Position numbers and translations under genes: made by a program. From Luteimonas deserti (GTDB lineage Bacteria; Pseudomonadota; Gammaproteobacteria; Xanthomonadales; Xanthomonadaceae): a stretch of DNA of 64,000 nt. The number at the start of each line of letters is the position of its first letter. Within the stretch, counting starts at the first letter, position 1. The notes below the pieces were generated by a model. The model was not told the DNA's origin. It did no database searches and saw nothing but the letters and a program-made list of their open reading frames with translations. This document shows positions 6,617-45,608 of this stretch, piece by piece. The stretch is taken from positions 310,001-374,000 of the forward strand of contig NZ_JACCJZ010000017.1 in NCBI RefSeq assembly GCF_013425765.1. The letters are read 5' to 3'.

Positions 6617-6628
6617 ACGCGGCTCGTC

Positions 6629-6786: not shown

Positions 6787-6820
6787 TGGTCCGGCGGTAT
6801 CGACGGACGCGGGGCGCGCG

Positions 6821-7426: not shown

Positions 7427-7558
7427 AATGGACGCTGCCGGGTGACGCCGGCGATTGCGTGCCCCGTCGGATCCAGTCCGGGGCGGAGCCGGCACGGCCC
7501 CTTCGGTCGCGGCTTTGTGTACCGTGCTCGGCCCGATCACCTGCGACGCTTCGGCCCC

Positions 7559-9745: not shown

Positions 9746-9980
9746 GCACGTACACGGGGCGGGAACGCCGCGGGCCTCCGTGCAATGTCGGTGTGGCCCG
9801 TCACCGGCGGATGCCGGCCGACCCGACGGGGGCAGCGTGCGCCGACGCCTCCGGACACGTCCGCGTCCGCGGCGCCTCGTCTCCACCGAGCGCATCCAGC
9901 GGGCCGGGCCCGCGCGATGCTCATGCCGCGCAGGCGGGCGGCAGTGCAGGCTGCAGGCCATGCCCACGCAGGAGATTCGG

Positions 9981-10508: not shown

Positions 10509-10644
10509 CCGGGCGCGTGGCGCCGGCGACGAACCGGGCCGCCTGACGTCCCGCGCAATCTGCCGGCGTCGTGCCCGCCGCAGCGGCGTGTCCGTCCGCG
10601 ATCGTCGCGGGGCCCGGCACACATGCGTCTCACCTGCGCGCGCC

Positions 10645-10650
10645 TAGTCT
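10645..10650 (+). promoter_or_regulatory. -10-like element TAGTCT
   Basis: TAGTCT ends 27 bases before the ATG of the DUF2254 gene. The identical hexamer precedes the gene at 26640. Confidence 0.35.
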
Positions 10651-10677
10651 TCACGTCTCCCGCAGCCCGGCACGCCC

Positions 10678-11967: not shown

Positions 11968-12244
11968 TCCGCTCCGCGCGACATGTGCGGTCATACCGCG
12001 TGGATGTGGCGGCGTGTCCGGCATCGCCGTGCCCTCTGCGCGCGTCTAGGCGATGCCCGGGATCGCCCGGTCCGCCGCGGCGAAGTTGGCGTGCAAGCGC
12101 CCGTCGACTGCCGACAGGGCGTTCACCCGGTCCGGTGACCGGAACCCGTCGGCGACGCCGAGCCGACCGTGGGGCGGCCCCACGCGGTCACGGAGTCTTC
12201 CGCAGTGGATCGCACAGGCCCGCCATGCGTGCCTGCGGGCGCGA

Positions 12245-31216: not shown

Positions 31217-33405
31217 CAGTAGCGCGCCCGCAGGGTGAGGGTGACGTTCCGCGGCTCGCCGAAGGTGTTGTACGTGTTCGGCCCGCCCACCCGCGCGTAG
31301 TACACCTTGTCCAGCAGGTTGTTGAAGGAGGCGGAGATCGCCAGCGTCGGCGAGAGTGCATAGCCGCCATGCAGGCTCAGCAGCGCATAGGACGGCTGCT
31401 CGCGCACGCCTTTGACACCTCCGCCCACGAACAGGCTCTGCGCCTGCAGGCCCGCGGCGATCCACCCGCGGTCCCAGCCGGGAGCGCCCGGCGTGTACTT
31501 GGCGAAGGCCTTGACGGTGTGTTCCGGCTCCCAGGTGTCGATCGGCTGGCCGATCAGGTTCGCGTTCTGGTTCTGGATGTGCTCCGTTTCCAGGAACGTG
31601 TAGCCGAACGAGAGATCGATGCCCTGCGTCGGACTGCCGTTGATCTCGAGATCGACACCGCGCACTTCCACTTCGCCCAGAGGAATGAAGAAGCCGGGAT
31701 GGGCGGGGTCGGCGAACGGACGGTTCACGTCGCGGGTGCGGAACGCCGCCAGCGAGGCATTGAGGCCGGAATCGAAGAAGGTGCCCTTGACCCCGACCTC
31801 GAACTGCTTGCCCACGCGCGGGTCGAGCGCCGTTCCGGCGCCACCGTCGTACTGCAGCGAGGTCTGCGGAATGAAGATGTCCGAGTAGCTGCCGTAGAGG
31901 CTGACGTTCGGCTGCACGTAATAGACGAGGCCGCCGTACGGCGTGACCACCCCGGACTCGCGCCCGCGGTTGGCGAATGCCGTGGGATTGGGGTTGGGCG
32001 CGATCGTGCGGAACTTGGAATTGAAATCGCTGACCCGCGCACCGAGTACGGCGGTGAGGCCGTCGACGATCTCGAAGCGGCCCTGCCCGTACACGCCCCG
32101 CTGGATGGTGCGCGTGTGCCCGCCGTTGTTGGCCACGAAGTTCGGGCGTGGCACCGACGCGGCGTCCTCCAGTACAACGCCAGATCCCGGCGGCGTGCCG
32201 GTGTAGGGGACATTGGAAATGCCGGTGTTGACGTTCTCGTACAGCTCGTAGCTGTGGCCCACCGTCAGCGTGTGCTCGCGCCCGAAGAGTGCGAGCGGAC
32301 CGGACGCGTAGAGGTCGGTGCCGGTGCGCTCGGTAGTGCCGTCGTTGGTGCGCCGGTTGTAGCTCGGGAAGCGCCCGGTGACCGGATTCAGCCCAACGCC
32401 AGGCGTCGGGTAGCCGTCGGTGAAGACCTTCTGCTGGTCGCGGTAGGTGACCTTGGCCCGCACGACCCAGCGGTTGGCGAACTGGTGACGCAGGTCGGCG
32501 GCGTACTCGATGGTCTCGTAGACATTGAGGTTCCAGTCCGGGTACTGGTTGGTGGAGCGCGGCACGTCGAGGAACCGGTTGTGCAGCGGATGGCCGGGCA
32601 GGTTGTAGTTGGCCAGTCCCATGCTCATCGCGTCGCCGCGGTCATCCTGGTAGGTGACCATCGCCGAGGCGAGCGTCCGGTCGCTGATGTCGAAATCCAG
32701 CACGCCGTAGGCGACCACCTTCTCCTGGTGCGAGCGGTCGACGAAGAAGTCGCGCTCCTGGTAGGAGCCGGCGAAGCGACCACGCAGGCGGCCGTCGAAC
32801 CCCAGAGGCGCGCCGACATCGGCCTCGACGCGGTAATTGTTCCAGGAGCCCGCCGAGACCGCGCCGGTCGCGCCGAAGACGCCCGGCGCACGCTTGCGGA
32901 TGAAGTTCGCCGTGCCGCTCGGCTGGCCCGAGCCCTTGAAGATGCCGGCTGGACCGCGCAGGACTTCCACCTGCTCGTAGACGACGAGATCGAATTCCTG
33001 TGCCTGGCCGCTGTTCCAGGCCGGAATGCCGTCGTACGACACATCGAGCAGATAGCCGCGCGAGCGGATCTGCCCGATCAGTCCGTCCCAGGTGGTGACG
33101 TAGACACCCGGCACCTGGGCAAGGGCATCGGTCATCGTGACCAGGTTCTGGTCGAGGATCCGCTGTTGCGTGATCACGCTGACCGTATTGGGCACATCGA
33201 GGATGGACACCGGCTCCTTGCCGCCGATGCTCACCGATTCCGCGGCGTAGCTTCCACGTGCACCCGTGACCCGGATGGTGTCCAGATCACTGGCCGGCGA
33301 AGTCTGTGCCAGGGCAGGCAGCATCGCGGCGAACAGGGGCGCGACCACGAGGGCGCGTGTGCCACGGCGAGGCGATCGGAGGACAGCGGGCGAGACGAGG
33401 TTCAT
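31216..33405 (-). CDS. TonB-dependent siderophore-type outer-membrane receptor
   Basis: 729 residues. A signal peptide ends near ALAQTSP (residue 35). The plug domain shows the TonB-box region DTIRVTGAR, the siderophore-receptor signature SILDVPNTVSVITQQRILDQ, LAQVPGVYV and RSRGYLLDVSYDGIPAW, then EVLRGPAGIFKGSGQPSGTA. A 22-strand barrel ends in the aromatic FNNLLDKVYYARVGGPNTYN and the terminal TLRARY. Family knowledge suggests uptake of a ferric siderophore or similar chelate. It is the first gene of the operon with two permeases and an ATPase, and its stop overlaps the first permease start. No clear Fur box was found. Confidence 0.9.
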   Translation of the reverse strand: MNLVSPAVLRSPRRGTRALVVAPLFAAMLPALAQTSPASDLDTIRVTGARGSYAAESVSIGGKEPVSILDVPNTVSVITQQRILDQNLVTMTDALAQVPGVYVTTWDGLIGQIRSRGYLLDVSYDGIPAWNSGQAQEFDLVVYEQVEVLRGPAGIFKGSGQPSGTANFIRKRAPGVFGATGAVSAGSWNNYRVEADVGAPLGFDGRLRGRFAGSYQERDFFVDRSHQEKVVAYGVLDFDISDRTLASAMVTYQDDRGDAMSMGLANYNLPGHPLHNRFLDVPRSTNQYPDWNLNVYETIEYAADLRHQFANRWVVRAKVTYRDQQKVFTDGYPTPGVGLNPVTGRFPSYNRRTNDGTTERTGTDLYASGPLALFGREHTLTVGHSYELYENVNTGISNVPYTGTPPGSGVVLEDAASVPRPNFVANNGGHTRTIQRGVYGQGRFEIVDGLTAVLGARVSDFNSKFRTIAPNPNPTAFANRGRESGVVTPYGGLVYYVQPNVSLYGSYSDIFIPQTSLQYDGGAGTALDPRVGKQFEVGVKGTFFDSGLNASLAAFRTRDVNRPFADPAHPGFFIPLGEVEVRGVDLEINGSPTQGIDLSFGYTFLETEHIQNQNANLIGQPIDTWEPEHTVKAFAKYTPGAPGWDRGWIAAGLQAQSLFVGGGVKGVREQPSYALLSLHGGYALSPTLAISASFNNLLDKVYYARVGGPNTYNTFGEPRNVTLTLRARY

Positions 33406-33436
33406 CTGAAGCTCAATAAGGTGAAGGTGACGTTAA

Positions 33437-33442
33437 GTTATA
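33437..33442 (-). promoter_or_regulatory. Candidate -10 of the receptor/ABC operon
   Basis: TATAAC on the minus strand, 31 bases before the receptor ATG, inside a short AT-rich island (about 33415-33480) that stands out from the GC-rich surroundings. The 8-base palindrome GTTATAAC is centred there. The -35 region is weak. Confidence 0.4.
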
Positions 33443-33893
33443 ACATGACTCTCGATTCGTATTCATCTTGTCTGTTATCGGACACGCCGGCCGCGGAAAT
33501 CCAGGGCGAGAGGACTTGTGTTCTGAGCCCCCCGAACCGTGTGGAAGACCATGTCCGGCGAGGCCCATTTCCAGCAGGGGGTTCAGAAAGCTTGCAGGAC
33601 CCCATCCGCCGTCGCGGGCGCGACGCTCCGTACTCCGCCGACAAATGTCTGCCTGAGGCAACGGGGCAATACCGGGCGACGCTGCGAGCAGCCGACTTCG
33701 GAATCGAACCGGCGTCTACGGCGCTTTCGTCAAGCACTCGACACGTCCACCGACGGAGACCGCAAGAACGGTGCGGCCGGAGGCGACGCCGTCCGGAGGA
33801 GCGTGTGCCCCGCCAGGACGCCGCTCTTCGATGGCCACGTATCCTGTGCCGTCGCTGCGCACGCGCAGCACTTCGATACCGAGGATGCGACTG
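33443..33893. other. Intergenic region upstream of receptor operon
   Basis: About 450 bases between the receptor operon and a small rightward gene. I see no convincing gene. A stretch resembling a tRNA T-arm (about 33698-33710) does not fold and was rejected. Confidence 0.4.
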
Positions 33894-34094
33894 ATGGCCC
33901 GGATGCAACGCGACCCGACCCGGGAACGCAATCTCAGCCACGACTACGCGAAGTGGCTGCTGCAGGAAAAGCGCGAGCGCACCCAGGCGAACGGCGCCCT
34001 GTTCGCCCGCACCCACACCACGCGGGGCCGCCGCTTTCACGGCTACAACCAGGAAGAGGTCTGCCGGATCATCGGCGTCGATTTCGATAGCTGA
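33894..34094 (+). CDS. Small basic hypothetical protein
   Basis: A 66-residue, highly charged, soluble protein, for example LSHDYAKWLLQEKRERTQ and RGRRFHGYNQEEVCRIIGVD. I do not recognise a family. The ATG at 33894 has GAGG nine bases upstream, and the composition (Lys, Glu, Tyr, Asn, few Pro) differs from chance GC-rich frames, which supports a real gene. An in-frame ATG at 33885 is possible. The short size and basic patches might suit a nucleic-acid-binding or regulatory role, but nothing proves it. Confidence 0.5.
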   Translation: MARMQRDPTRERNLSHDYAKWLLQEKRERTQANGALFARTHTTRGRRFHGYNQEEVCRIIGVDFDS

Positions 34095-34673
34095 GCGCCG
34101 CGATCGTGGTGAAACTTCCGCCGCGGCATGGGGCACGACTTACGTAAGCCGACGGGTTCCGTGCTGCGAACGGGACGTCAAAATCCGGGAGCCCGACTTC
34201 GTCGAGAGACCGTGTGCATCACGAACGCTGCGTTTTGTGGTGCGCCGGCGCAAAAAAACTGCCTCTCGAAGAGCTCTCCCAGTCCTTGCTGCGTACGGAG
34301 CCTGAGGTGCGACGGCGTGAGCGCCGCGCGTCGGGCACTGCGCAGCGTGTGCACGAGTACGTCGCTGCCTGCATGCTGCGCAACACGGCGGTATTCCGGC
34401 AAAGATGTCGTCAATCTGGTTGGTTCCGTCGGACGATCGCGTCGCTCGTGTCCGCTCTTCATTCACCGTCGGCGCTGACTCCTCATGTTTACTCGGCCGG
34501 GTGCCTGCGAACAGGGCTACGCAGGCCGCTTTGATGTACCCATGCGATGCCGGTCCTAGTGGTTGGGTGATCTCATCCCGCGCGGGGAGACGTACCGTAC
34601 GACCAGGAGGAGGCAGTTGGCGGGCGGGGGCTCGAGATTGCAAATTGAGCAGTAAGGCATGTAACTCAGCGCA
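34095..34673. other. Lower-GC intergenic region
   Basis: About 580 bases, visibly less GC-rich than the surroundings. Frames on both strands (for example minus 34688-34140) lack protein-like composition and start signals. I see no gene; it may be old transferred or decayed sequence. Confidence 0.4.
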
Positions 34674-34687
34674 TGTCACCGGTGTCA
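34674..34687. promoter_or_regulatory. Candidate LacI-type operator 1
   Basis: TGTCACCGGTGTCA: central palindrome CACCGGTG flanked by TG and CA, matching 13 of 14 bases of a LacI-family-type palindrome TGACACCGGTGTCA at the same spacing. It lies about 390 bases before the large TonB receptor gene. Confidence 0.4.
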
Positions 34688-34744
34688 CCAGTTGAGCGCG
34701 TGAGCAGCAGCTGCGAATGTCCGATCACTTTGTTGCGCTGCACG

Positions 34745-34773
34745 GTGACAAAATCCTCAGCGCGTAATAAATC
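34745..34773 (+). promoter_or_regulatory. Candidate promoter of the TonB receptor gene
   Basis: GTGACA (34745-34750, five of six against TTGACA), a 17-base spacer and the AT-rich TAAATC (34768-34773, weak -10). It lies just upstream of the operator at 34787, so a bound repressor would sit near the start site. The leader would be about 295 bases. Confidence 0.3.
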
Positions 34774-34786
34774 TGCGTCAACGATG

Positions 34787-34800
34787 TGTTAGCGCTATCA
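34787..34800. promoter_or_regulatory. Candidate LacI-type operator 2 (TGTTAGCGCTATCA)
   Basis: TGTTAGCGCTATCA has the palindromic core TAGCGCTA framed by TG and CA. This is the classic LacI-family operator form TGnTAGCGCTAnCA known from Caulobacter and Xanthomonas sugar-uptake genes. It lies 275 bases before the TonB receptor ATG, 113 bases from operator 1. Confidence 0.55.
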
Positions 34801-35075
34801 CGGTGGATGCGGCTGCTGGCTCTACTAGAGATGCGACAACGCTCGATAAGGAGTGCCGGAAGGGGCGGCGCACCTTGTGACATGAAGTGCGACGCGAGGG
34901 GAAGCAAAGGCCGCATCGAGTATTTGCATATGCGGCGCAGACGATCCTGCGGATGTGAGAGGTCGATAGCGACTCGGATCGTGTCATCGGTTCGCGAGCG
35001 GACATGCGTGAAAAAAGGGTGCCGGGGGCGACGTGCTCACGGTCGTTGCAATCCTGGTGCTGAGGGAAAGGCCAC

Positions 35076-38000
35076 ATGAATCGTAAGTTGAAGCGTTTGA
35101 AATCGCGTGCGATGTTCACCTTCGTCGGGGGGGTGCTGATTCTCAATCCCGCATTCGCGCAGGAGCCGCAGCAGACTGCCCGGCCTGCGTCCGAGTCTGC
35201 CCCGTCGTCGAGCCAGGCGGCGACCAATCTCGATACGGTCACCGTCACCGCGTTGCGCAGCAGCCTCAACCAGTCGATGGAGACGAAGCGCGAAGCCGCG
35301 GGCGTGGTCGATGCGATCAGCGCCGAGGACATCGGCAAGTTCCCGGATACCAATCTCGCCGAATCCCTGCAGCGCATTACCGGCATCTCGATCGAGCGAC
35401 GCGATGGCGAGGGCGCGCAGGTCACGGCGCGCGGTTTCGGTCCTCAGTTCAACATGGTCACGCTCAATGGACGTCAGGTGCCCGGCGCCGACGCCTTCGG
35501 TGCCGCCGGCCAGGTGGCGATCGGTGGTGTGGATGGCGGCACGCGCGCTTTCAATTTCGCGCAGCTCGCGGCCGAGTCCATCAGCGGGATCGAGGTCTAC
35601 AAGACCAGCCAGGCCCACGTGCCCAGCGGCGGTATCGGCGCGACGATCAACATCCTCACCGACCGACCGTTCAACCATTCGGGCGTCGTCGCCAGTGCGG
35701 GTGCCAAGGTCGTTTCCGACCGCAGCCAGCCGTTCGAGAACGATCTGACGCCCGAACTGTCCGGCATCTTCAGCTACACCAATCCCGACAAGACCTTCGG
35801 CGTGGGACTGAGCACCAGTTACCAGAAGCGCCAGGGCGGCTCGGTGCAGGCCACCAACAACTACTGGAACATCCAGCCGTGGACGGGCTCGATGCCGGGC
35901 AATCCGGCGGTGGTCAACGCGCCGGCCATCGGCGAGCTGTACGCGCGCCCCAATGACCTGCGTTACGCGTTTTCCGAATTCGAACGCGAGCGCATCAATG
36001 GCCAGGCCGTCGTGCAGTTCGCGCCGACCGACAGCGTCACGCTGACGTTGGACTACACCTACTCGACGAACGAGATCACCGAGAACCGCGGCGAGCAGGG
36101 GATGTGGTTGCAGAACAGCGACTACACCAACATCGAGTTCGACACGTCCGGCGCGGTGGCGACGCCGACCTACATCCGCGAGATCGCCGGCACCAAGGAT
36201 TTCGGCCTCGAGCAGCAGCGCAGCATGCAGGAGTACAAGCTCGGTTCGCTGGGCTTGAACGCGGTCTGGGACGTCAGCACCGATTTCCGGCTGAGCTTCG
36301 ACGCTCACAACTCGAAGACCGAGAGCCGGCCGAACGATCCGCTCACCGGCGGCGGCTCGATCTTCATGAGCATCGCGGGCACCAACAACTGCACCACGGG
36401 CCCGCATTGCGGCGGCTCGTGGGTGCAGGAACTCGCCTTCAACAACGGCATGCCGGTCGGCACGCAGACCTGGTATCCCTCGACCGCGGATGCGATCGCG
36501 CGCACCAACGGTGTCGTCAACCCGGGCTTCGTGGCTGGCGAGATCGGCAGTCAGGTGCTCCGCGTCAATGCGCAGACCCAGGTCAGCGAGATCAAGCAGG
36601 GACGGGTCGACGGCGAGTGGAGCTTCGACCAGGGCCGCTTCCAGTTCGGCGTCGACAGCAACAAGGTCACGACACATCGTCTGCAGGCGGCCGAGGCCTA
36701 TTCGGCCCTCGGCGACTGGAGCGTGGCGAACGTCGATTCCGACGTGGCCGGCGGCCTGATGAACTTCCTGCAGCCGGTCAACATCGTGGGTCTGTTCGAC
36801 GACTACTCCTTCAGCAGCTGGCCGGCGTGGCGCGGCGACGCCGGTGCGCTCGCGCAGTGGGCGGCCGGTCAGTACGGTGTGGGCCTGGGCGTAAGCCCGC
36901 AGAACTCGGCCGACAACCGGGTCGAAGAGAAGACCAATTCGGCGTACATGCAGCTCTCGCTCGAGGGTGAGCTCGGCGGCATGCGCACCAACACCCGTAT
37001 CGGCGTGCGCTACGAAACCACCGACATCACCTCGACCTCGATCATCGCCATTCCCGAGGCGATCGAGTGGCAGTCCAACAACGACTTCCGCATCCTGCTG
37101 TCGGACGAGAAGCAGCCCTTCAGCGAACGCTCGAGCTACAGCTACATCCTGCCGAATCTCGATTTCAGTCTCGATTTCACCGACCAGTTGAAGGGGCGCG
37201 CGTCGTTCGGCAAGAGCATCGCGCGTGCGCCTTACGGAAACCTCTATGCAGGCCCGGGGGCCCAGCAGCCGACCGGCTCGGTCCTGCTGGATTCCTCGGT
37301 CCGCGCTCAGGGCAACTCGCAGAACCCGAGCCTCAAGCCGCTGGAGTCGGACAACCTCGATCTGGCGCTCGAATGGTATTTCGCCAACGCGAGTTACCTG
37401 TCGGTGACGTACTGGACCAAGTCGGTGAACAACTTCATCGGCAACACCATCACCCAGGAGCCGCTCTACGGACTGCGCGACCCGACCTCGGGCCCGGATG
37501 CCCAGGCCGCGCTCGCCTTCCTGCTCAGCCCGGCATGCGCGGCGCAGGTGGGCGCTGCCAATGCGTCGGCGTGTTCCGGCAACGACACATCGCTGTTCAG
37601 TGCGCTGGCCTTGCTGCGCAACGACCCGGCCGGTCTCGGCGCGTTCGACGGCACGGGCGCCCAGGCGCTCGCGCTGGAAGCGGCTTACGACGTCTACGGC
37701 AACGCCAACGACCCGCTGTACCAGTTCAACGTCAGCCAGCCGATCAACCAGAGCGCGGCCACGCTGCGCGGCTGGGAGCTGGGCGGCCAGTACTTCTTCG
37801 GCGACAGCGGGTTCGGCATCCTCGCCAACTACACGATCGTCAACGGCGACGTCGGCTACGACAACGCGGGCGATCCGAACGTCGACCAGTTCGCGCTCAC
37901 CGGCCTCAGCGACACCGCCAACGCGGTCTTCATGTACGAGAAGTACGGCTGGACGGTGCGCCTGGCCTGGAACTGGCGTGATGAATATCTGATCCTCGCC

Positions 38001-38216
38001 AACCAGGGCAACAGCAAGAATCCGTACTACGTCGAGGCTTACGACCAGTGGGACCTCAGCGTGAACTACGCGCTGAACCGGAACTGGTCGTTCGGGTTCG
38101 AGGCGATCAACCTGACCGGCGAGGACGTCCGCTGGCACGCCCGCACCGACCAGCAGATCGTCAAGCTGGCCGACCAGAGCCCGCGCTACATGCTGGGTGT
38201 GCGGTACCGGTTCTGA
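35076..38216 (+). CDS. Large TonB-dependent receptor (TIGR01782, Xanthomonas/Caulobacter type)
   Basis: 1046 residues. The signal peptide ends at NPAFAQ (residue 29). The TonB box region reads NLDTVTVTALRSSLNQS, and the plug has the TIGR01782 signature VVDAISAEDIGKFPDTNLAE, SLQRITGISIERRDGEG and VTARGFGPQFNMVTLNGR. The long barrel ends with YMLGVRYRF, whose terminal Phe is used for outer-membrane insertion. Receptors of this subfamily import plant-type or complex carbohydrates rather than iron chelates. Two LacI-type operators upstream suggest induction by a sugar or its product. SapC, cupin-8 and halogenase genes follow, as in related bacteria. A strong hairpin lies just after the stop. Confidence 0.93.
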   Translation: MNRKLKRLKSRAMFTFVGGVLILNPAFAQEPQQTARPASESAPSSSQAATNLDTVTVTALRSSLNQSMETKREAAGVVDAISAEDIGKFPDTNLAESLQRITGISIERRDGEGAQVTARGFGPQFNMVTLNGRQVPGADAFGAAGQVAIGGVDGGTRAFNFAQLAAESISGIEVYKTSQAHVPSGGIGATINILTDRPFNHSGVVASAGAKVVSDRSQPFENDLTPELSGIFSYTNPDKTFGVGLSTSYQKRQGGSVQATNNYWNIQPWTGSMPGNPAVVNAPAIGELYARPNDLRYAFSEFERERINGQAVVQFAPTDSVTLTLDYTYSTNEITENRGEQGMWLQNSDYTNIEFDTSGAVATPTYIREIAGTKDFGLEQQRSMQEYKLGSLGLNAVWDVSTDFRLSFDAHNSKTESRPNDPLTGGGSIFMSIAGTNNCTTGPHCGGSWVQELAFNNGMPVGTQTWYPSTADAIARTNGVVNPGFVAGEIGSQVLRVNAQTQVSEIKQGRVDGEWSFDQGRFQFGVDSNKVTTHRLQAAEAYSALGDWSVANVDSDVAGGLMNFLQPVNIVGLFDDYSFSSWPAWRGDAGALAQWAAGQYGVGLGVSPQNSADNRVEEKTNSAYMQLSLEGELGGMRTNTRIGVRYETTDITSTSIIAIPEAIEWQSNNDFRILLSDEKQPFSERSSYSYILPNLDFSLDFTDQLKGRASFGKSIARAPYGNLYAGPGAQQPTGSVLLDSSVRAQGNSQNPSLKPLESDNLDLALEWYFANASYLSVTYWTKSVNNFIGNTITQEPLYGLRDPTSGPDAQAALAFLLSPACAAQVGAANASACSGNDTSLFSALALLRNDPAGLGAFDGTGAQALALEAAYDVYGNANDPLYQFNVSQPINQSAATLRGWELGGQYFFGDSGFGILANYTIVNGDVGYDNAGDPNVDQFALTGLSDTANAVFMYEKYGWTVRLAWNWRDEYLILANQGNSKNPYYVEAYDQWDLSVNYALNRNWSFGFEAINLTGEDVRWHARTDQQIVKLADQSPRYMLGVRYRF

Positions 38217-38246
38217 TCGCGACCGGTACCCGGTCCGACGCGAAGG

Positions 38247-38275
38247 CGATCCCGCTGCGGCGTGCAGCGGGATCG
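38247..38275 (+). terminator. Hairpin after the TonB receptor gene
   Basis: CGATCCCGCTGC and GCAGCGGGATCG form a perfect 12-base stem with a 5-base loop, followed by GCGCTTTCG. It begins 30 bases after the receptor stop. It may end most transcripts there, so that the SapC, cupin and halogenase genes are made at a lower level. Confidence 0.6.
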
Positions 38276-38329
38276 GCGCTTTCGGGTTCGGTGGTGCATC
38301 CGGGTGCCCGGTCCACGCGCCGCACCCGG

Positions 38330-38335
38330 TAACAT
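38330..38335 (+). promoter_or_regulatory. -10-like element TAACAT before SapC gene
   Basis: TAACAT ends 45 bases before the SapC-family ATG and comes after the hairpin, so these genes may have their own promoter. No good -35 was seen. Confidence 0.25.
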
Positions 38336-38380
38336 CGTGCCGGTCGCAGCCGCATCCGCGACGTCCGGTAGGGAGGGGCG

Positions 38381-39136
38381 ATGGCCCGTTACGAACTGCT
38401 CAACAACGTGGCCCACGCCGCGCTTCGCGTGGCCACGGGCTTCGGGCCGCAATACGGCGACGACGTGGGCATGGTGCCTGCGTTTCCGAGCGAGTACGCG
38501 GAGCTCCAGCGCGAGTATCCGATCTTCTTCCGGAAGGACGCGGAGGGGGCTTGGACGTCGGTGGCACTGCTCGGTTTCGAGCAGAGGGAGAACCTGTTCC
38601 TGCGCGACGGGCGCTGGAATGCCAGCTATCTGCCGGGTGCGGTCGCCAAGGGACCGTTCCTCATCGGCTTCCAGACGCAGCATATCGACGGCGAGCTGCG
38701 GCAGGAGCCGGTGATCCACGTCGACCTCGAGCATCCGCGCGTGGTTGAAGAGACGGGTGAACCGGTGTTTCTTCCTCAGGGCGGCAACAGTCCCTACCTC
38801 GAACATATCGCCGGCGTGCTGCGCGGCATCCGTGACGGGACCGATTTTGGCGCACAGATGTTCGACGCTTTCGATGCGCTGGGACTGATCCAGCCGGTGT
38901 CGCTGGCGGTCGAGCTCGACGACCGGCACCGCGTCGATGTCGCCGGCCTGCACGGCATCGACCGTGACCGTCTGGTCGCGCTGGACGGCGCGGCGCTCGA
39001 AGGTCTCAGCCGCGCGGGATATCTGGAAGGGGCCTATCTGGTGCTGGCGTCGCTGCACAACATGCGCCGCCTGATGGCCGAGAAGCAGCGGCGTTTGCGC
39101 GAGCAGGACATGCCGGTGGCGACCCGAGGACGCTGA
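38381..39136 (+). CDS. SapC family protein
   Basis: 251 residues, no signal peptide. The start YELLNNVAHAALRVATGFG, then MVPAFPSEYAELQREYPIFF, GFEQRENLFL and WNASYLPGAVAKGPFLIGFQ match the SapC family (historically named from the Campylobacter surface-layer gene sapC). In Xanthomonas and Caulobacter relatives, SapC genes are regularly coupled to TonB receptors and halogenase-like genes; the biochemical role is unknown. GGGAGGGG precedes the ATG. The cupin-8 gene follows after 3 bases, so the two are surely co-transcribed. Confidence 0.9.
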   Translation: MARYELLNNVAHAALRVATGFGPQYGDDVGMVPAFPSEYAELQREYPIFFRKDAEGAWTSVALLGFEQRENLFLRDGRWNASYLPGAVAKGPFLIGFQTQHIDGELRQEPVIHVDLEHPRVVEETGEPVFLPQGGNSPYLEHIAGVLRGIRDGTDFGAQMFDAFDALGLIQPVSLAVELDDRHRVDVAGLHGIDRDRLVALDGAALEGLSRAGYLEGAYLVLASLHNMRRLMAEKQRRLREQDMPVATRGR

Positions 39137-39139
39137 GAC

Positions 39140-40156
39140 GTGACGCCCGCCGCCATGCGCACGCTGGACGACTGCGATCCGGGTGCACTCCCGCTGGATG
39201 CATTGACGGCCGAGGGCCAGCCTGCGGTGCTCAAGGGGGTCGCCCGCGACTGGGGTCTGGTGCGTGCCGGGGGGGCGTCCGTCGCCGATGCCATGGCATA
39301 TCTGCGCGGCTTCGACGGGGGCCGTGCGGTGCCGTATTCCTTCGGCCCACCGGAGATCGAAGGGCGCCCGTTCTACAACGCCGACTGCACCGCATTGAAC
39401 TTCGAGGTGCGCCGCGGCGGGCTCGGCGAGGTGCTCGACGCGATCTCGAACCATCTCGACGATCCGCAGCCACCGACATACTACGTCGCCTCACTGCCGG
39501 TGGCCGGCGCGCTGCCCGGCTTTTCCGAACACAATGCGCTGCCGCTCGCGGGACTCGGCATCGACGCACCGCCCAGTATCTGGATCGGCAACCGCGTCGT
39601 GGCGTCGTGCCACTTCGACGCGCCCGACAACCTCGCGGTCTGCGCGGTCGGCCGTCGCAGGTTCACGCTGTTTCCGCCCGAGCAGATCGACAACCTCTAT
39701 CCGGGCCCGCTGGAGCCCACGCCGGGGGGCCAGGTCGTGAGCCTGGTCGATTTCACGAACCCGGACGAGTCTAGGTTTCCACGCTTCCGAGATGCGATGG
39801 CGTCTGCGCAGACCGCCGTGCTGGAACCGGGCGACGCGATCTTCATCCCCAGCATGTGGTGGCACCAGGTGCAGGGACTCGCACCGTTCAATGTGCTGGT
39901 GAACTACTGGTGGCGTCGGTCGCCGGCCTACCTCGCGTCGCCGCTGCTCGCGCTGCAGCATGCGCTGTGGACGGTGCGGGACCTCCCCGAGCGCGAAAAG
40001 CAGGCCTGGGCCCGGATCTTCGACTACTACGTCTTCGGCCCGGCCGACCGTGCAGGCGCGCATCTTCCTGCAGCGGCACGCGACGTGCTCGGCCCCATCG
40101 ACGAGACGCTGGCGCGCCGCATGCGCGCCATGCTGATCGCGCGTCTCAACCGCTGA
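39140..40156 (+). CDS. Cupin-8 (JmjC-like) domain protein
   Basis: 338 residues, no signal peptide. The cupin core has the iron-binding HxD in SCHFDAPDNLAV (His158, Asp160) and the distal His242 in IPSMWWHQVQG. GDAIFIPSMWWHQV is the usual strand before it. Together with GRRRFTLFPPEQIDNLYPGP this fits the cupin-8 group, which includes protein and small-molecule hydroxylases of the FIH/JmjC type using 2-oxoglutarate. Here it sits between SapC and a flavin-dependent halogenase, so it may modify the same molecule. GTG 39140 or ATG 39155 could be the start; I used the longer form. Confidence 0.87.
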   Translation: MTPAAMRTLDDCDPGALPLDALTAEGQPAVLKGVARDWGLVRAGGASVADAMAYLRGFDGGRAVPYSFGPPEIEGRPFYNADCTALNFEVRRGGLGEVLDAISNHLDDPQPPTYYVASLPVAGALPGFSEHNALPLAGLGIDAPPSIWIGNRVVASCHFDAPDNLAVCAVGRRRFTLFPPEQIDNLYPGPLEPTPGGQVVSLVDFTNPDESRFPRFRDAMASAQTAVLEPGDAIFIPSMWWHQVQGLAPFNVLVNYWWRRSPAYLASPLLALQHALWTVRDLPEREKQAWARIFDYYVFGPADRAGAHLPAAARDVLGPIDETLARRMRAMLIARLNR

Positions 40157-40178
40157 ACCGCATCAGGAGCACGCCTGG

Positions 40179-41711
40179 ATGAATGAGGCAGCACCCGGGG
40201 CCGGCGGCCCCGTTCGCAAGGTGGTGATCGCAGGCGGCGGAACTGCAGGCTGGCTCGCGGGCTGCGCGCTCGCGCACCAGTTCCGTGATCGCCTCGACAT
40301 CACCCTGGTGGAGTCGGACCAGATCGGCACCATCGGAGTGGGCGAGTCCACCGTGCCGCCCATTCGCAGCTTCCACCGCTTCCTGCAGATCGACGAGCAG
40401 GCCTTCCTGCGCGCGGTGGCCGGCACTTTCAAACTCTCGATCTCGTTCGAGGGCTGGCGACGCCCGGGGCACCACTACATCCACCCGTTCGGAATGACGG
40501 GGCAGGGCACCCTGGCCGCCGGCTTCCATCATTTCTGGCTCGACAGCCTGCGCCGCGGCATGTCCTCCGAGCTGGGCGACTTCTGCCTGGAGTCGGTGGC
40601 CTCGCGCGCGGCTCGCTTCTCGCTGCAGACCCGGCCCCAGGTGAACTATGCCTACCACCTCGACGCCGGTCTCTACGCCCAATTCCTGCGCGGTATCGCC
40701 GAACGGCACGGACTGGTCCGTATCGAGGGCCGCATCGGCGCCGTGAGCCGGCATGCGACCAGCGGTGATGTCGACGCCCTGGTGCTCGACGATGGCCGAC
40801 GCATCGAGGGCGACCTGTTCATCGACTGCACCGGTTTTCGCGGACTGTTGATCGAGCAGGCGTTGCAGACCGGCTACGAGGACTGGAGCCACTGGCTGCC
40901 GAGCGACCGGGCCGTCGCAGTGCAGACCGCGCTGTCGGGCTCACCGGTGCCGTATACGCGGGCGATCGCGCACAAGGCCGGTTGGCGCTGGCAGATCCCG
41001 CTGCAGCACCGGGTGGGGAATGGACTGGTGTATTCCAGCCGCTACATGTCCGACGACGAGGCCCACGCGAAACTGCTGCGCGACATCGAGGGCCCGCCTT
41101 TGGCGGAGCCGAGGGTGGTGCCGTTCCGCACCGGCCGCCGGCTCAAGACCTGGAACCGGAACGTGATCGCGCTGGGGCTGGCCAGCGGCTTCATCGAGCC
41201 GCTGGAATCGACCAGCCTGCACCTGGCGATCAGTGCGGTGGTGCGTCTGATCCAGCTGTTCCCGTTCGAAGGCATCGCATCGTCGCTCGTGGATCTGTTC
41301 AACGATGCCGCCCGCGCCGAAGCCGAGCACGTGCGCGACTTCATCGTGCTGCACTACCACGCCACCCGGCGCGAGGAGCCGATGTGGACCGCATGCCGCG
41401 AGATGCCATTGCCGCCTTCGCTCGAGCTGCGACTGCGCGCCTGGCGCGAGCGCGGCCACGCCTGGCAAGGCGCGGACGAACTGTTCCGCGTCGACTCCTG
41501 GACCCATGTGCTGCTGGGCCAGGGAATCGAGCCGAGGCAGCATCATCCGCTGGCGCGCGCCCTGGGGGACGACGACCTGCAGCGGCTGCTGGCATCGATC
41601 CGCGATCCGATCCGGCGCACGGTGGACGGGATGCCATCCCAGCAGGCCTTCATCGAGCACTACTGCAAGTCGCCTGCGGCTGTCTGGGGCTCGCGCGCAC
41701 CCGCAGCCTGA
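40179..41711 (+). CDS. Flavin-dependent tryptophan-halogenase family enzyme
   Basis: 510 residues. FAD-binding GGGTAG (19-24), catalytic Lys85 in VAGTFKLSISFEGW, and the halogenase signature WxWxIP as GWRWQIPLQHRVGNG (268-282). The conserved Glu-Ser pair lies in SGFIEPLESTSLHLAIS. These are the residues that let FADH2, oxygen and halide make a chlorinating or brominating agent. So the enzyme looks competent, although it probably acts on something other than free tryptophan. Relatives from Xanthomonas and Brevundimonas with the same neighbours halogenate indole-like compounds in vitro. A separate flavin reductase would be needed; none is adjacent. Confidence 0.9.
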   Translation: MNEAAPGAGGPVRKVVIAGGGTAGWLAGCALAHQFRDRLDITLVESDQIGTIGVGESTVPPIRSFHRFLQIDEQAFLRAVAGTFKLSISFEGWRRPGHHYIHPFGMTGQGTLAAGFHHFWLDSLRRGMSSELGDFCLESVASRAARFSLQTRPQVNYAYHLDAGLYAQFLRGIAERHGLVRIEGRIGAVSRHATSGDVDALVLDDGRRIEGDLFIDCTGFRGLLIEQALQTGYEDWSHWLPSDRAVAVQTALSGSPVPYTRAIAHKAGWRWQIPLQHRVGNGLVYSSRYMSDDEAHAKLLRDIEGPPLAEPRVVPFRTGRRLKTWNRNVIALGLASGFIEPLESTSLHLAISAVVRLIQLFPFEGIASSLVDLFNDAARAEAEHVRDFIVLHYHATRREEPMWTACREMPLPPSLELRLRAWRERGHAWQGADELFRVDSWTHVLLGQGIEPRQHHPLARALGDDDLQRLLASIRDPIRRTVDGMPSQQAFIEHYCKSPAAVWGSRAPAA

Positions 41712-41896
41712 CCGGAGGCTGCGTGGACGCGCCTTGGCGCGCCGGCACGGACCGGCACCTCGGCATGCGACGCGCGCTCGCTCTCGCGGAGCTGACCTGT
41801 CGCGCGCCGCGACGGGCCTGCTCGTCGGGCGCGAAACAAGGTGACGGATCCACCGCATGCGGCCACCATGCTCGCCCCGAACCCTGGAACCGCTGG

Positions 41897-43201
41897 ATGC
41901 CTCGCCTGCGCCCTGCAGCCCTGCTCGTGCTCTGCCTGGTCCCGTTGCTCGCCGCCGGCGCGCGTGAGCCGCACCGTGTGGCTGGAGACGCTTGCGACGG
42001 CTACCCGCGTCTGGCCATCGGCACGATGCGCGGCATGTGCGCAGGCCTGGTGCTCGGCCCCACGACGCAGGACCCGACGCGGCCGCTGCGCCTGCCGCGG
42101 TCACTGCTGCAACTCGATGCCGACACCTGGCTGGTGACCGACCTCGGCGCCTGGGAAGGCGCGCGTGGCGCGGTCTGGCGGATCCGGACGGGCGTGGGCA
42201 CCAAGGCTCGGCTGGACCGCGTGCTGGATGGCCTGCACCTGCCGCATGCCATCGCCCGCGGCCCCGACGGCGCGATCTACGTCGGCGAGATGAGCCGGAT
42301 CCTGCGATTCGATCCCGGCGCCGTGGAGCCGGCCGCGACCGTGCAGACGGTGATCGACGGACTTCCCGACAACCGCCTGCATGCCCACCGGCATCCCTTG
42401 TCCAAGTTCGTCTTTCTTCCGGGCGGCGATCTGCTGGTCAACGTCGGCGCACCGAGCGACCAGTGCGCGGGGCCGGCGCTGCGTACCGACGAAGGCCGCT
42501 GCGCACAGAGCGAAGGCGACGAGGATGCGGCCAGTCTTCGGCTGTACCGGTACGCCGGAGGCGGGCGATGGTCGTCCGACCACGAAGTCTTCGCGCGTGG
42601 CCTGCGCAATTCGGTGGCCCTCGCGGTGCATGCATCGGGCACGGTGCTGCAGGGCGAGAACAGTTACGACTTCGCTACCCGGTGGTCACCGTTCGAGGAA
42701 CTCAACATCGTCGAGGCCGGACACCACTATGGCTGGCCCTACTGTTTCGATCGGGACCGGGCGACCCCCGCCTGGCCGGAGCGTGCCGGATGGTGCCGGG
42801 CGGCGACGCATACCGCGCCCGCCCTGCTGCTGCCGCCCCATGCCGCACCGTTGGACATGCTCTGGTACGAGGGGGCCATGTTCCCCGCATTGCAGGGTCG
42901 GCTGCTGATGAGCTGGCACGGCCATCGCTCGGTGGGTGGACGCATCGCGAGTTTCGCGGTCGATGACCGGGGTGTGCCGACGGTCGATGCGCACCCGCGC
43001 TTTCCGGTCCATGGCCAGGGCATGCGTGCCTACGGCGCCGGTCCCGCCGCCACGCCGGTGGAGCTGACCCCCGGCTGGGGTCTGGAGCGCGGCGTGCGGC
43101 CCCAGGGGTCGCCGGTCGGCCTGGCGGTCGCCGATGACGGCGCCATCTGGGCCACCGACGATCGCGCGGGCCTGGTCATCCGCTTCGCCCGCGACGACTG
43201 A
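41897..43201 (+). CDS. PQQ-type sugar/sorbosone dehydrogenase-like secreted protein
   Basis: 434 residues with a signal peptide (PRLRPAALLVLCLVPLLAAG). A six-bladed propeller follows: YPRLAIGTMRGMCAGLVLG, HLPHAIARGPDGAIYVGEMS, LHAHRHPLSKFVFLPGGDLL, VFARGLRNSVALAVHASG, NIVEAGHHYGWPYCF and PQGSPVGLAVADDGAIWATD. This is the GDH-B/sorbosone dehydrogenase (Gdh) family, which binds pyrroloquinoline quinone; the asp/arg/his residues cannot be fully checked by eye. It oxidises a sugar in the periplasm, perhaps the product of the receptor system upstream, since it is the last gene in the same direction. A second, fused paralogue is at 50685. Confidence 0.8.
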   Translation: MPRLRPAALLVLCLVPLLAAGAREPHRVAGDACDGYPRLAIGTMRGMCAGLVLGPTTQDPTRPLRLPRSLLQLDADTWLVTDLGAWEGARGAVWRIRTGVGTKARLDRVLDGLHLPHAIARGPDGAIYVGEMSRILRFDPGAVEPAATVQTVIDGLPDNRLHAHRHPLSKFVFLPGGDLLVNVGAPSDQCAGPALRTDEGRCAQSEGDEDAASLRLYRYAGGGRWSSDHEVFARGLRNSVALAVHASGTVLQGENSYDFATRWSPFEELNIVEAGHHYGWPYCFDRDRATPAWPERAGWCRAATHTAPALLLPPHAAPLDMLWYEGAMFPALQGRLLMSWHGHRSVGGRIASFAVDDRGVPTVDAHPRFPVHGQGMRAYGAGPAATPVELTPGWGLERGVRPQGSPVGLAVADDGAIWATDDRAGLVIRFARDD

Positions 43202-43237
43202 GCCGGGCGCCAGGGCCGAATCCGCGCACCGCGCTGC

Positions 43238-44203
43238 TCACTGCTCGAGATAGCGTGCGGCTTCGTCCTCGTAGATCTCGTAGCCGGGCGCGAGATGCGG
43301 CAGCAGCAGCCGCAGCCATGCACGGCTGATCAGTCGTGTTTCGCGCGCGCAGCCGCGGGCACGCTGGGCGGTGAGGTCGCCGGTATCCACCATGCCGGCG
43401 AAACTGTCCGGATCGGTCCCGTAGATCAGGCATTGCAGATTGAAGTACCGCTGCTCGCCCAGCGCGTGTTCCGCTGCGTACGCCTCCAGATCGTAGGCGC
43501 CAGTGCTGTCGGAGAGCATCCAGTTGGCGGCCATGCGCAGGTTGGCGATCACCTCGGCGGGCGTCTCCTCCACCCCGGCGAAGCGCAGCATCAGGATTGC
43601 CGCGAGCTGGTCGACCGCGTCTTCCTGGCGTCCGGTCACCGGGAGATCCAGCAGGTGCACGAGCGCATGTCCGGTTTCGTGCAGCACGATGAAGCGGATA
43701 TTGGCCCGCGTGTAACGCAGGGGATGGTCCTCCGCCAGGCGGCTCGCGCGCTGCTGGTCCTGGCCGCGCTCGTACAGCGTGCGCAGCGTCTCGTAGCACA
43801 GCACGACTTCGGCATCGGCCGGGCGGTAGAACGCGCCGAATTCGCCACACTCCTGGGTGACATAGCGCAGGCGGCGCGGCAGCGCGAACATGCCGTCGAT
43901 CGCCTGCACCTCCGGCAAGCGCTGCAGCAGATCGGCTTCCAGGACGCGCTCGTGGATCGCCTGCAGATCGTGCGAACGCGGGGGGCGGTAGACGTACTCG
44001 AACGGCGGCGGGGCCGGGCGCGCAGATACGTGCGGATGCCCACGGCGCACCTGCACCACCGCACGCAGGGCGTCCGCCCACGCCTGCGGGGCCGGATCGA
44101 CGCGGCCGGGATTGCGCAGGCGGTCGCCTGCGCCGCCTGTGCACCCGAGGGCGAGCAGCGCCGCCATCAGCCCCGCTACGGTCGCGCGGTGGCAACGGGA
44201 CAT
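43238..44203 (-). CDS. DUF4344-type zinc metallopeptidase lipoprotein
   Basis: 321 residues. The start MSRCHRATVAGLMAALLALG, followed at once by CTGG, ends in a lipobox with Cys21, so it is anchored in a membrane facing the periplasm. The zinc motif HETGHALVHL (175-184) with a further acidic ligand in REDAVDQLAA (about 193) is that of DUF4344 metallopeptidases, which share the M-type HExxH fold. Substrate unknown. I chose ATG 44203 for the lipobox; longer frames are not supported. It is convergent with the PQQ-type dehydrogenase and next to the EF-Tu-like gene on the same strand, 126 bases downstream of it. Confidence 0.82.
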   Translation of the reverse strand: MSRCHRATVAGLMAALLALGCTGGAGDRLRNPGRVDPAPQAWADALRAVVQVRRGHPHVSARPAPPPFEYVYRPPRSHDLQAIHERVLEADLLQRLPEVQAIDGMFALPRRLRYVTQECGEFGAFYRPADAEVVLCYETLRTLYERGQDQQRASRLAEDHPLRYTRANIRFIVLHETGHALVHLLDLPVTGRQEDAVDQLAAILMLRFAGVEETPAEVIANLRMAANWMLSDSTGAYDLEAYAAEHALGEQRYFNLQCLIYGTDPDSFAGMVDTGDLTAQRARGCARETRLISRAWLRLLLPHLAPGYEIYEDEAARYLEQ

Positions 44204-44329
44204 CCGCCAGTGCAGGACACGGGACTCGGTGCCGGAACCGCGGATGTCGGGCGTCGTCGGGTCGCCGGCGGCAGTGGGCAGCCGCGTGCGCATCGCAGGT
44301 ATCACGTCGACGGCGCCGTCGAAGGAGGC

Positions 44330-44737
44330 TCAGGGGCGAGCGGACGTCGGGGTTTCCGGCGCGCGTACCAGGACATGCCCCACGTTCTTGCCGCCTTCGC
44401 GCACCGTCACACGCGTTCCGGGCGCCACCGAAACGGCGTTGCGGCAGTCCAGGGTGACGTCGCCGGTTTCGCCCGGGGCGATCGTGCGCACCCCTTGCGC
44501 AAGATGGATCGTGCAGATCACCTCGCGCCCACCGAACACGAGCGTCGGCCTGTATTTGCTGAAGATGGGCGTCCTGCGCGCATCGCGTCCGCTCTCCGAC
44601 CCGTTCAAGCTCAGTGCGCCCGCGATGGGTCGGCCGGCATCGAAGTCGATGGCGGCAGGTCCGGGCTCGCTTGCACCTGCAGAGGTGGCGAGAAGCAGCG
44701 CGAGCAGGCCTGCGGTGGTTGCGCAGATGAGATTCAT
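44330..44737 (-). CDS. Exported protein resembling domain III of elongation factor Tu
   Basis: 135 residues with a signal peptide (NLICATTAGLLALLLATSAG, then Ala-Ser-Glu). The mature part reads like EF-Tu domain III alone: LNGSESGRDARRTPIFSKYR (compare EF-Tu LSKDEGGRHTPFF..YR), PTLVFGGREVICTIHL, GVRTIAPGETGDVTLDC and GTRVTVREGGKNVGHVLV (compare FAIREGGRTVGAGVV). No GTPase domain is present and the export signal is clear, so this cannot be a translation factor. Such a beta-barrel could bind another protein or a ligand at the cell surface. TAGCCT, a -10-like hexamer, lies 28 bases upstream. The finding deserves a structural check. Confidence 0.75.
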   Translation of the reverse strand: MNLICATTAGLLALLLATSAGASEPGPAAIDFDAGRPIAGALSLNGSESGRDARRTPIFSKYRPTLVFGGREVICTIHLAQGVRTIAPGETGDVTLDCRNAVSVAPGTRVTVREGGKNVGHVLVRAPETPTSARP

Positions 44738-45203
44738 GGCATGGCGTCCGTGCGGGTGAACCGCAAGGCTAGCCGCGCACGCGATGGAGTGCCACCGCGT
44801 TCGCCATGGCTGCGCACGTGCGGCGCCACGAATGCGACGGCGTGCCGCGCCCACCGCAGTCGCATGCCGCGCAGCCTGAACCCCGCCACTTGATCAAGGG
44901 TCAGCGCTCCGTATGCGTCGGCCCGCCCTGGCCGATGCGTGGTGATGACATCGGCGTGGTGATGAACCCGGACGGCCATCCTGCAGGCCGGCGCGCCGGT
45001 ATCGCGGCGGAGAAAAGCGCCCAGCGAGCACCCATGGCCGAAACCGACGCATCACTGCTCGCCACGGGAGGGACGTGGCCGGGGCCGGGGTTGTTCCGGC
45101 CACGGTCGCTGCTGGCGTGGAAACCCTGTCCGTCAGGACGGACCGCCTCATCGATGCCCGTGCTGGCAGTCGGCGACGGAACATGCCCGCAGCCGTGCAG
45201 GCC
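44738..45203. other. Intergenic region
   Basis: About 465 bases between the EF-Tu-like gene and the HPF-like gene. Frames here look like chance ORFs. It holds the TAGCCT -10-like element (44771-44766, minus) of the EF-Tu-like gene. Confidence 0.45.
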
Positions 45204-45533
45204 TCAATACCCGCGTTGCTTCTCGATCCGCGAATCCAGGAGGCTCTTGAGCTTGTCGCAGGCACCGCGGATCGCACGCTCCACATCCTGGTCGTCGTGG
45301 CTCGCGCCGATCGGATCGTCGTTCTGCATGCGCGCCTCGAGCGCGCAGCGCTTGTCGTTCGGCCCGCCCTTGCTGGAGTTGCTGTCGGACAGGAACACCT
45401 CGATCCGGCTCAGACGCGGGTAGAAACGGCCCAGATGCTGCTCGAGCATCGCGTTGACCCGCGCTTCGAGTGCGTCGTTGCCATCGATGTGGTTGTCGGT
45501 GTTGAACTGGATATTCAAGAAGCGCTCCTGCAT
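45204..45533 (-). CDS. HPF/RaiA family ribosome-associated protein
   Basis: 109 residues, the short hibernation-factor size. It begins ERFLNIQFNTDNHIDGNDAL and continues EARVNAMLEQHLGRFYPRLS, RIEVFLSDSN, then KRCALEARMQNDDPIGASHD and a helix DVERAIRGACDKLKSLLDSR. This is the beta-alpha-beta-beta-beta-alpha fold of HPF/YfiA, which lies in the ribosomal decoding channel and keeps idle ribosomes inactive. The acidic-polar loop after the third strand (SDSNSSKGGPND) is longer than in E. coli HPF. It is followed on the same strand by nothing convincing; a sodium channel gene lies upstream. Confidence 0.82.
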   Translation of the reverse strand: MQERFLNIQFNTDNHIDGNDALEARVNAMLEQHLGRFYPRLSRIEVFLSDSNSSKGGPNDKRCALEARMQNDDPIGASHDDQDVERAIRGACDKLKSLLDSRIEKQRGY

Positions 45534-45608
45534 CTACGGATGGAGTCAGCGTAACGACGACGCACTTGAGTCACCGTGAAGCCCCGGCGCGGCGCAACCC
45601 GGCATGGC

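Follow-up and report, generated by a model that had tools for sequence, protein, structure and literature searches.

A probably xylan-linked receptor, SapC, cupin and halogenase module in Luteimonas deserti, with a tentative protein target for its enzymes

Two kinds of described system resemble the locus analyzed here. On the one hand, the CUT loci of Xanthomonas campestris and Caulobacter crescentus comprise the xylose/xylan receptors XCC2828/CC0999 and XCC4120/CC2832, and xylose-induced receptors accompanied by a xylose palindrome are reported from both bacteria (PMC1790865). On the other hand, the flavin-dependent halogenases of the branch that includes BrvH and the X. campestris enzymes are studied biocatalysts: Xcc4156 and BrvH act on indoles and not on free tryptophan, and a peptide has been proposed as their native substrate (PMC7336383; PMC5945002). 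PMC7336383 describes these relatives as having an open active site that accepts indoles, reports in vitro bromination of indole-type substrates by the X. campestris enzymes, and states that no native substrate is known for BrvH or those enzymes. The present analysis concerns a stretch of 64,000 nucleotides from Luteimonas deserti (contig NZ_JACCJZ010000017.1, positions 310,001 to 374,000; hereafter the window), where genes for a TonB-dependent receptor, a SapC-family protein, a cupin_8 oxygenase and a halogenase of this very branch follow one another, the last three being referred to below as the trio. Gene order, a shared operator and a residue pattern tie the halogenase to sugar receptors: the module very likely supplies the outer-membrane end of a xylan regulon whose genes lie at two separate genome places, and its enzymes may modify a polypeptide.

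The features that carry the argument are given by their coordinates in the window.
34787-34800, no strand assigned: LacI-type operator TGTTAGCGCTATCA, which fits the pattern TGNTAGCGCTANCA and is common to the xylan cluster
35076-38216, + strand: TonB-dependent receptor of 1046 amino acids, TIGR01782 (TonB-Xanth-Caul; 772.9 bits, cut-off 310)
38381-39136, + strand: SapC-family protein (PF07277, 212.9 bits), no signal peptide by eye
39140-40156, + strand: cupin_8/JmjC-type 2-oxoglutarate oxygenase, FIH-like (PF13621, 228 bits)
40179-41711, + strand: flavin-dependent halogenase, type A (post-cupin subfamily; PF04820, 620.5 bits), catalytic residues intact

The profile scores bear out what the original prediction, made from the sequence alone, had said of these four genes, all of which lie in one direction. 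The receptor exceeds its family cut-off, contains Plug and barrel domains, begins with a signal-like stretch, carries a TonB-box-like LDTVTV and yields an AlphaFold2 model (predicted local distance difference test score, pLDDT, 82.2) that matches the TonB-transporter fold (E 2.2e-25). Inspection by eye revealed no signal peptide in SapC, the cupin or the halogenase, which are predicted to be cytosolic. Only 3 bases separate the SapC and cupin genes and 22 the cupin and halogenase genes, and 164 lie between the receptor end and the SapC start, a spacing compatible with co-transcription, although short of proof of it.

The link to xylan comes from the operator. Across the 3.72-Mb genome, TGNTAGCGCTANCA occurs at just two places, 34787-34800 of the window and C19:181764, directly upstream of a glycoside hydrolase family 10 (GH10) xylanase gene. 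The 19.9-kb cluster around the latter (L278) encodes an FGGY kinase, a xylose-isomerase-like protein, a LacI repressor (C19:170337, between the isomerase-like gene and the GH67 gene), GH67, a GH43 enzyme bearing a beta-xylosidase-type C-terminal domain and two GH10 enzymes. With up to two mismatches allowed, the pattern is found at four sites in this C19 stretch (the exact site and three more at one or two mismatches) versus two in the 154.7 kb of nine other stretches of the same genome. Upstream of the receptor, the operator is present in all 26 of 26 orthologues, a count that leaves out L032 with its split receptor, versus none of the 62 other receptors of the clade. It differs at 2 of 14 positions from the xyl-box TGGTAGCGCTAACA that is given for X. 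citri (PMC10380989). As for L032 (Xanthomonas phaseoli pv. phaseoli), its orthologous receptor (4427-7845) and halogenase (9971-11535) genes each lie in two overlapping frames.

What is split in L. deserti is contiguous in four relatives. In Stenotrophomonas sp. BIGb0135 (L011) and in L149, L150 and L151, from the same family, kinase and isomerase genes come immediately after the module; their products are 71-73% and 85-87% identical to those of C19, and a sugar transporter gene stands behind them. A GH3 gene comes next in L011 and L150; the L149 and L151 stretches end inside the transporter, and the GH3 matches obtained there stem from an overlapping frame of the query. In L011, a LacI gene (73% identical) and GH67 extend the series. 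A second LacI gene, divergent from the receptor gene, sits immediately upstream of the operator and encodes a protein 62.7% identical to the C19 LacI; in L151, a LacI gene (66%) is found upstream of the receptor. Taken together, the shared operator, the C19 cluster and these relatives make it very likely that the module forms the outer-membrane end of a xylan regulon divided between two genome places. From these sequence relationships we infer repressor binding at the operator, induction by xylan sugars and the ligand of the receptor. The uptake of a plant or polymer-derived ligand, as first proposed, is supported and narrows to that of xylan-derived sugars through the shared operator and the xylose-linked relatives.

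The statement that the window lacks a LacI gene and a flavin reductase holds for the families searched, all five Peripla_BP_3 (LacI-type) matches of the genome and its single PF01613 (reductase domain) match lying outside the window. Likewise, no glycoside hydrolase was found among the nine proteins scanned around the module (31216-46457), the sole place looked at, and these nine include no degradative enzyme, inner-membrane transporter or regulator; a xylan cluster under the same operator is nonetheless present elsewhere in the genome, and the apparent absence of LacI and glycoside hydrolases is thus replaced by a well-supported regulon in trans. A second LacI-type palindrome had been proposed next to the conserved one.
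34674-34687, no strand assigned: second palindrome TGTCACCGGTGTCA, 6 of 7 pairs, without support as a conserved operator
This candidate is left out of account: its pattern TGNCANCGNTGNCA occurs at 9 genome places versus 4 for the backwards control, no counterpart was found in the list of palindromes upstream of related receptors, and the window holds 259 14-mers that are at least as palindromic. Other branches seem to use other LacI operators, since a LacI-like palindrome of some kind is present in 44 of 80 upstream regions (79 loci and the window) versus 11% of random places.

A scan of public genomes returned at least 575 relatives of the halogenase, the best 80 of which were retained as loci and searched for neighbours with the window proteins as queries (phmmer, E <= 1e-5; three stretches of the window's own genome, which bring the loci searched to 83, are excluded from the counts). 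The receptor is present in 78 of these best 80 loci, SapC in 72 and cupin_8 in 69, and the order receptor-SapC-cupin-halogenase is kept in 68, at times with an extra halogenase before SapC or behind; the two loci devoid of a receptor are short contigs. Variant orders are receptor-halogenase-halogenase, receptor-SapC-halogenase and receptor-halogenase-SapC-cupin-halogenase. The recurrence announced for Xanthomonas and Caulobacter relatives is thereby confirmed and extends to Sphingomonas, Alteromonadales and Cellvibrio relatives and to marine Gammaproteobacteria; the neighbours being conserved, the case of a halogenase stripped of them did not arise. A control genome, that of C. vibrioides, gives matches to both SapC and PF04820. 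Three large plasmids of Sphingomonadaceae (L282, L283, L284) carry the module, one of them without the cupin, and on a plasmid of Sphingobium sp. RAC03 it precedes genes for GH16, LacI, a major facilitator superfamily (MFS) transporter, GH3, GH43 and GH95. In other bacteria, marine ones included, the trio adjoins receptors located beside GH3, GH1, GH94, GH16, GH43 and GH95 genes, the receptor being its constant neighbour across loci. In Xanthomonas, five of the ten representatives of recurrent neighbour clusters are frames that match no family, and the others are peptidases, a metallo-hydrolase, an alpha/beta hydrolase and an amino-acid permease; none of these ten is a xylan gene though the operator is kept there, and the Xanthomonas module likewise seems to lie apart from the xylan enzymes. 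Two loci, L161 (genome G047) and L224 (genome G447), have a receptor with the cupin only, SapC and the halogenase not adjoining.

L. deserti itself harbors a second module (C1:28000-47900, L090, at 4635-12528), composed of a receptor, a type-B halogenase, SapC, a cupin, a type-A halogenase and GH3. A LacI-type gene stands beside it, and the palindrome TGACAACGCTGTCA occurs at three places of C1 and at one on C10. Two far more divergent PF04820 relatives (C1:53615-54643 and C1:66261-67334) lie outside this module.

The distinction between the two halogenase types rests on a midpoint-rooted FastTree phylogeny of 129 halogenases linked to receptors, which splits into type A (82 sequences, the window's included) and type B (47), with supports of 0.999 and 0.76 for the two sides. 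Type A is mostly encoded after the cupin or SapC gene and type B mostly directly behind the receptor gene. Ser344 is kept in 81 of the 82 type-A enzymes and the proline of WxWxIP in 77; type B has the lysine and glutamate in 47 of 47, with alanine in place of Ser344 in 46 and mostly glycine (41 of 47) in place of that proline. The two types probably differ in chemistry or target. In the window, GGGTAG at position 19, Lys85, Glu343, Ser344 and GWRWQIP (268-274) are all intact, which bears out Lys85 and WRWQIP as first read; these are the sequence marks of PF04820 (GxGxxG, catalytic lysine and glutamate, WxWxIP), and activity is predicted. The closest solved structures are Xcc4156, 9luq and BrvH.

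The cupin had been described as having an intact HxD...H, and indeed the histidine and aspartate of CHFD and the histidine of WWHQ align with the metal ligands of human FIH (the Fe(II) triad). Its best solved relatives are the protein hydroxylases FIH and JMJD5, and by analogy it may hydroxylate a protein side chain. In a comparison of 124 receptor columns that are conserved when the cupin is present, no residue stood out as its target. Of the Asp, Asn, His and Arg positions, the one that depends most on the cupin is Asp375 (66 of 67 receptors with a cupin; without one, 58% of the 12 linked to type A and 33% of all 27 linked to any halogenase), which ranks behind a Tyr, a Gln and Trp665. SapC has a confident predicted fold and no PDB match was found for it. 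A class-wide search located SapC at 50 places, 40 of which were examined (L168-L207); distant SapC occurs without a cupin or halogenase in 36 of the 40, with a receptor present only as one 27-bit match (L187), and these other settings suggest no function, for, frames overlapping SapC aside, every neighbour family is found in at most 6 of the 36 places. SapC Trp79 was also considered as a target and set aside, being conserved in the low-scoring SapC set (43 of 46) as in the high-scoring one (111 of 112), the former mostly without a receptor or halogenase nearby. The low-scoring set keeps Pro85 and Phe93 along with Trp79.

With the cupin nearest to FIH and JMJD5 and the halogenase nearest to Xcc4156, 9luq and BrvH, a peptide having been proposed as substrate for Xcc4156 and BrvH, a protein is a plausible target of the trio, at slightly less than an even chance. 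That this protein would be the receptor itself is more tentative and on the unlikely side; the suggestion arises because the receptor is the constant neighbour, because two halogenase subfamilies match two operon positions, and because of the distribution of one tryptophan.
36717-36719, + strand: codon of receptor Trp548, hypothetical candidate halogenation site

This distribution was established on 179 receptors with downstream genes, reduced to 130 diverse ones: 94 linked to a halogenase, 33 with no linked enzyme and 3 with other enzymes only. On the tree of the 130, the halogenase label changes 17 times versus a shuffled mean of 31.7, so halogenase linkage, though clustered, was acquired or lost on several occasions. 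Trp548 is found in 72 of 75 type-A-linked receptors, versus 4 of 18 linked to type B only (2 of 16 when two contig-truncated rows are left out) and 7 of 33 without linked enzymes; Trp344 is found in 88 of 93 receptors with a typed halogenase versus 12 of 33 without enzymes. Among the 87 columns conserved in at least 93% of A-linked receptors, none is retained less often in B-only receptors than Trp548, and an alignment-free search for [GNDT][DNTE]W[GSA] at 44-60% of the protein length gave 53 of 75 (type A), 1 of 16 (type B only) and 1 of 33 (none). In the receptor model, about 70 residues separate strand 520-538 from strand 610-633, and Trp548 falls among them (block pLDDT 72); W344 and W665 stand at the ends of long strands. 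Since the long loops of TonB receptors point outward, an outer-loop position of Trp548 is likely. A broader candidate, namely all four invariant tryptophans (344, 548, 665 and 967) as halogenation targets, appeared striking when only 11 unlinked receptors were available, and was dropped: with 130 receptors and the tree, the differences largely follow clade membership and that first contrast is weakened. Trp548 remained the most specific to halogenase type A upon this tree-based re-examination.

Several observations weigh against halogenation of the receptor. Ancestry accounts for differences between linked and unlinked receptors at many columns, and none of the phylogeny-controlled tryptophan tests reached significance, the independent pairs being too few. 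For Trp548 and type A, five such pairs gave averages of 0.9 changing the same way, 0 the opposite way and 4.1 unchanged; for type B only, 1.7 of three pairs changed the same way; and for any halogenase, 11 pairs gave 2.1 the same way and 1.0 opposite for Trp548, and 3.7 and 1.0 for Trp344. Four receptors without linked enzymes (L222, L227, L209, L230) keep Trp548. Halogenases are encoded elsewhere in all four genomes (G426, G443 and G429 hold L072, L085 and L033, and G405 has three matches), and action in trans on these receptors is for that reason possible. Genome G047, with zero PF04820 matches, keeps Trp344, Trp548, Trp665 and Trp967 in a receptor encoded beside a cupin; its halogenase could have been lost recently, given that the closest tree row, L224, differs little. 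G340 likewise lacks a halogenase; it has glycine in place of Trp344 and phenylalanine in place of Trp548, although its branch is long. Finally, as no signal peptides were seen by eye in the trio, its proteins would need to work before the receptor leaves the cytosol. Stacking on glycans fits equally well, as three further tryptophans are invariant in the linked profile set.

A sugar-stacking role of the invariant tryptophans is hence an equally fair reading of their conservation. According to this best surviving alternative, Trp548 and the others are sugar-stacking residues of an outer site, the link with halogenase type reflects ancestry and the target of the trio lies elsewhere, and as a whole it has a sizeable though less than even chance of being correct. 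The modelled positions of W344 and W665 at strand ends and of W548 in a long loop are those expected of a carbohydrate-binding rim, the independent pairs are too few to exclude ancestry, and G047 retains the tryptophans without any halogenase match. However, general sugar binding does not predict that Trp548 should be the most type-A-specific of 87 conserved columns.

The trio could also act on the imported ligand, in that aromatic esters of plant xylan such as ferulate would be hydroxylated and halogenated after uptake. The module is tied to the xylan regulon, plant xylan can carry phenolic esters, and related halogenases take indoles into an open active site (PMC7336383). Nevertheless, the trio also accompanies receptors beside diverse GH genes, where a shared aromatic ligand is improbable, and a halogenated carbon source has no obvious use, so that this alternative appears unlikely. 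The oxidation and halogenation of the imported ligand advanced by the original prediction likewise lack support, because the glycan-gene settings vary, the dehydrogenase counted in the set drops out of it and the cupin is closest to protein hydroxylases. Somewhat less probable still is that the trio produces a signal or inhibitor upon xylan sensing, namely a small halogenated indole or phenol, its linkage to the receptor being mere co-regulation. The halogenase has its residues intact, and in vitro bromination of indole-type substrates is known from its X. campestris relatives (PMC7336383), but no biosynthetic genes were seen among the 20 annotated of 60 listed recurrent neighbour clusters, the receptor accompanies 78 of the best 80 loci, and SapC and the cupin have no evident place in such a pathway. 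A coincidental operator match, with the module under another regulator or ligand, is very improbable. In its favor, the candidate LacI gene lies on C19 and the module on C16; against it, the operator occurs at two genome places that are both beside relevant genes and is present in 26 of 26 orthologues, and the module adjoins xylose genes in four relatives.

The explanation that we favor combines a split xylan regulon with a trio that modifies a polypeptide, most probably the receptor, and as a whole it stands at about an even chance. The LacI-type repressor encoded in the distant C19 cluster would hold the module until xylan breakdown products relieve repression; receptor and trio would then be made together. 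The receptor would import xylan-derived oligosaccharides. Before export, while still unfolded, it would undergo hydroxylation by the cupin and bromination or chlorination by the halogenase, and the marked outer loop would serve ligand binding or protection. The most specific version, in which the type-A halogenase brominates or chlorinates Trp548 in the outer loop of its own receptor and the cupin and SapC complete the mark, is distinctly unlikely as it stands, and modification of the receptor is best regarded as a testable lead rather than a result. Modification of the receptor would mean that bacteria halogenate nutrient transporters of their own; if Trp548 is the halogenated residue, this would be the first case of an outer-membrane nutrient transporter halogenated after translation and would give the orphan halogenases of the BrvH/Xcc branch a native role. 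A branch whose natural target is unknown would in any event gain a target to test, and should the receptor prove unmodified, the real target of the trio would be narrowed to the sugar-uptake step.

Downstream of the module lies a gene that the original prediction had counted as its last member.
41897-43201, + strand: glucose/sorbosone-dehydrogenase-like protein with a signal-like N-terminus (PF07995, 45.9 bits), a neighbour outside the module
Described at first as a pyrroloquinoline quinone (PQQ)-type dehydrogenase, it is encoded in none of the best 80 loci, and the search of these loci and the window's own stretches found it only on another contig of the window's own genome. Convergent with it, a gene on the - strand (43238-44305) codes for a putative DUF4344 metallopeptidase, and 44330-44854, also on the - strand, codes for a 174-residue protein with a signal-like stretch whose sole match is the third EF-Tu domain (PF03143, 31.3 bits), a case of this domain in a protein other than EF-Tu. 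Another TonB receptor, encoded upstream of the module in the opposite orientation (31216-33405, -), is of the siderophore type; it exceeds the TIGR01783 cut-off and resembles the FauA and FhuE models, under their cut-offs.

In the open-licence literature, no paper was found that joins a halogenase with SapC, alone or together with a cupin and TonB, or with a TonB-dependent receptor in a LacI regulon, in polysaccharide utilization or in xylose use by Caulobacter, which falls short of proving absence; the sole match for halogenase, TonB-dependent and xylan was a species description. The words TonB and SapC are absent from the main text of PMC7336383, PMC5945002 and PMC8269204, and "cupin" from that of the latter two; TonB, SapC, outer membrane and receptor are absent from the main text of a review of peptide halogenation (PMC12615548), and "SapC" and "halogenase" from that of PMC1790865.

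Compared with single enzymes, the window halogenase belongs to the same PF04820 branch as BrvH (6frl), Xcc4156 (6y1w) and Xcc-b100_1333, and has the catalytic lysine and glutamate in common with them. It shares STVPPI with Xcc-b100_1333 but reads HPFGM in the next motif, where the table of PMC8269204 has HPFGS, and given this difference orthology is likely though unproven. A published analogy for halogenation of tryptophan only within a peptide is MibH, from a lanthipeptide pathway (PMC5945002; PMC7336383), to which Xcc4156 is 26% identical (PMC7336383). Unlike the setting of MibH, no precursor-peptide or other maturation genes of ribosomally synthesized and post-translationally modified peptides (RiPPs) were noticed among the proteins scanned here, with no dedicated or small open reading frame search made. 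The cupin is like FIH and JMJD5 in its cupin_8/JmjC family and aligned HxD...H; unlike FIH, with which the alignment covers only 120 residues (74 bits), it has an arginine at the place of FIH Lys214, a 2-oxoglutarate contact.

At the level of the whole locus, the nearest counterparts remain the CUT loci, where XCC2828 is presumably followed by SapC, cupin and halogenase genes. As in these loci, a TonB receptor is preceded by a xylose-type palindrome, and xylan/xylose genes stand under the same kind of operator (PMC1790865). Unlike them, the module of the window lies on a contig other than that of the xylan enzymes and adds SapC, a cupin and a halogenase. Since the enzymes, the transporter and the regulator do not adjoin it here, and kinase, isomerase and transporter genes do adjoin it in four relatives, the window is best viewed as holding part of a CUT locus that has been split.

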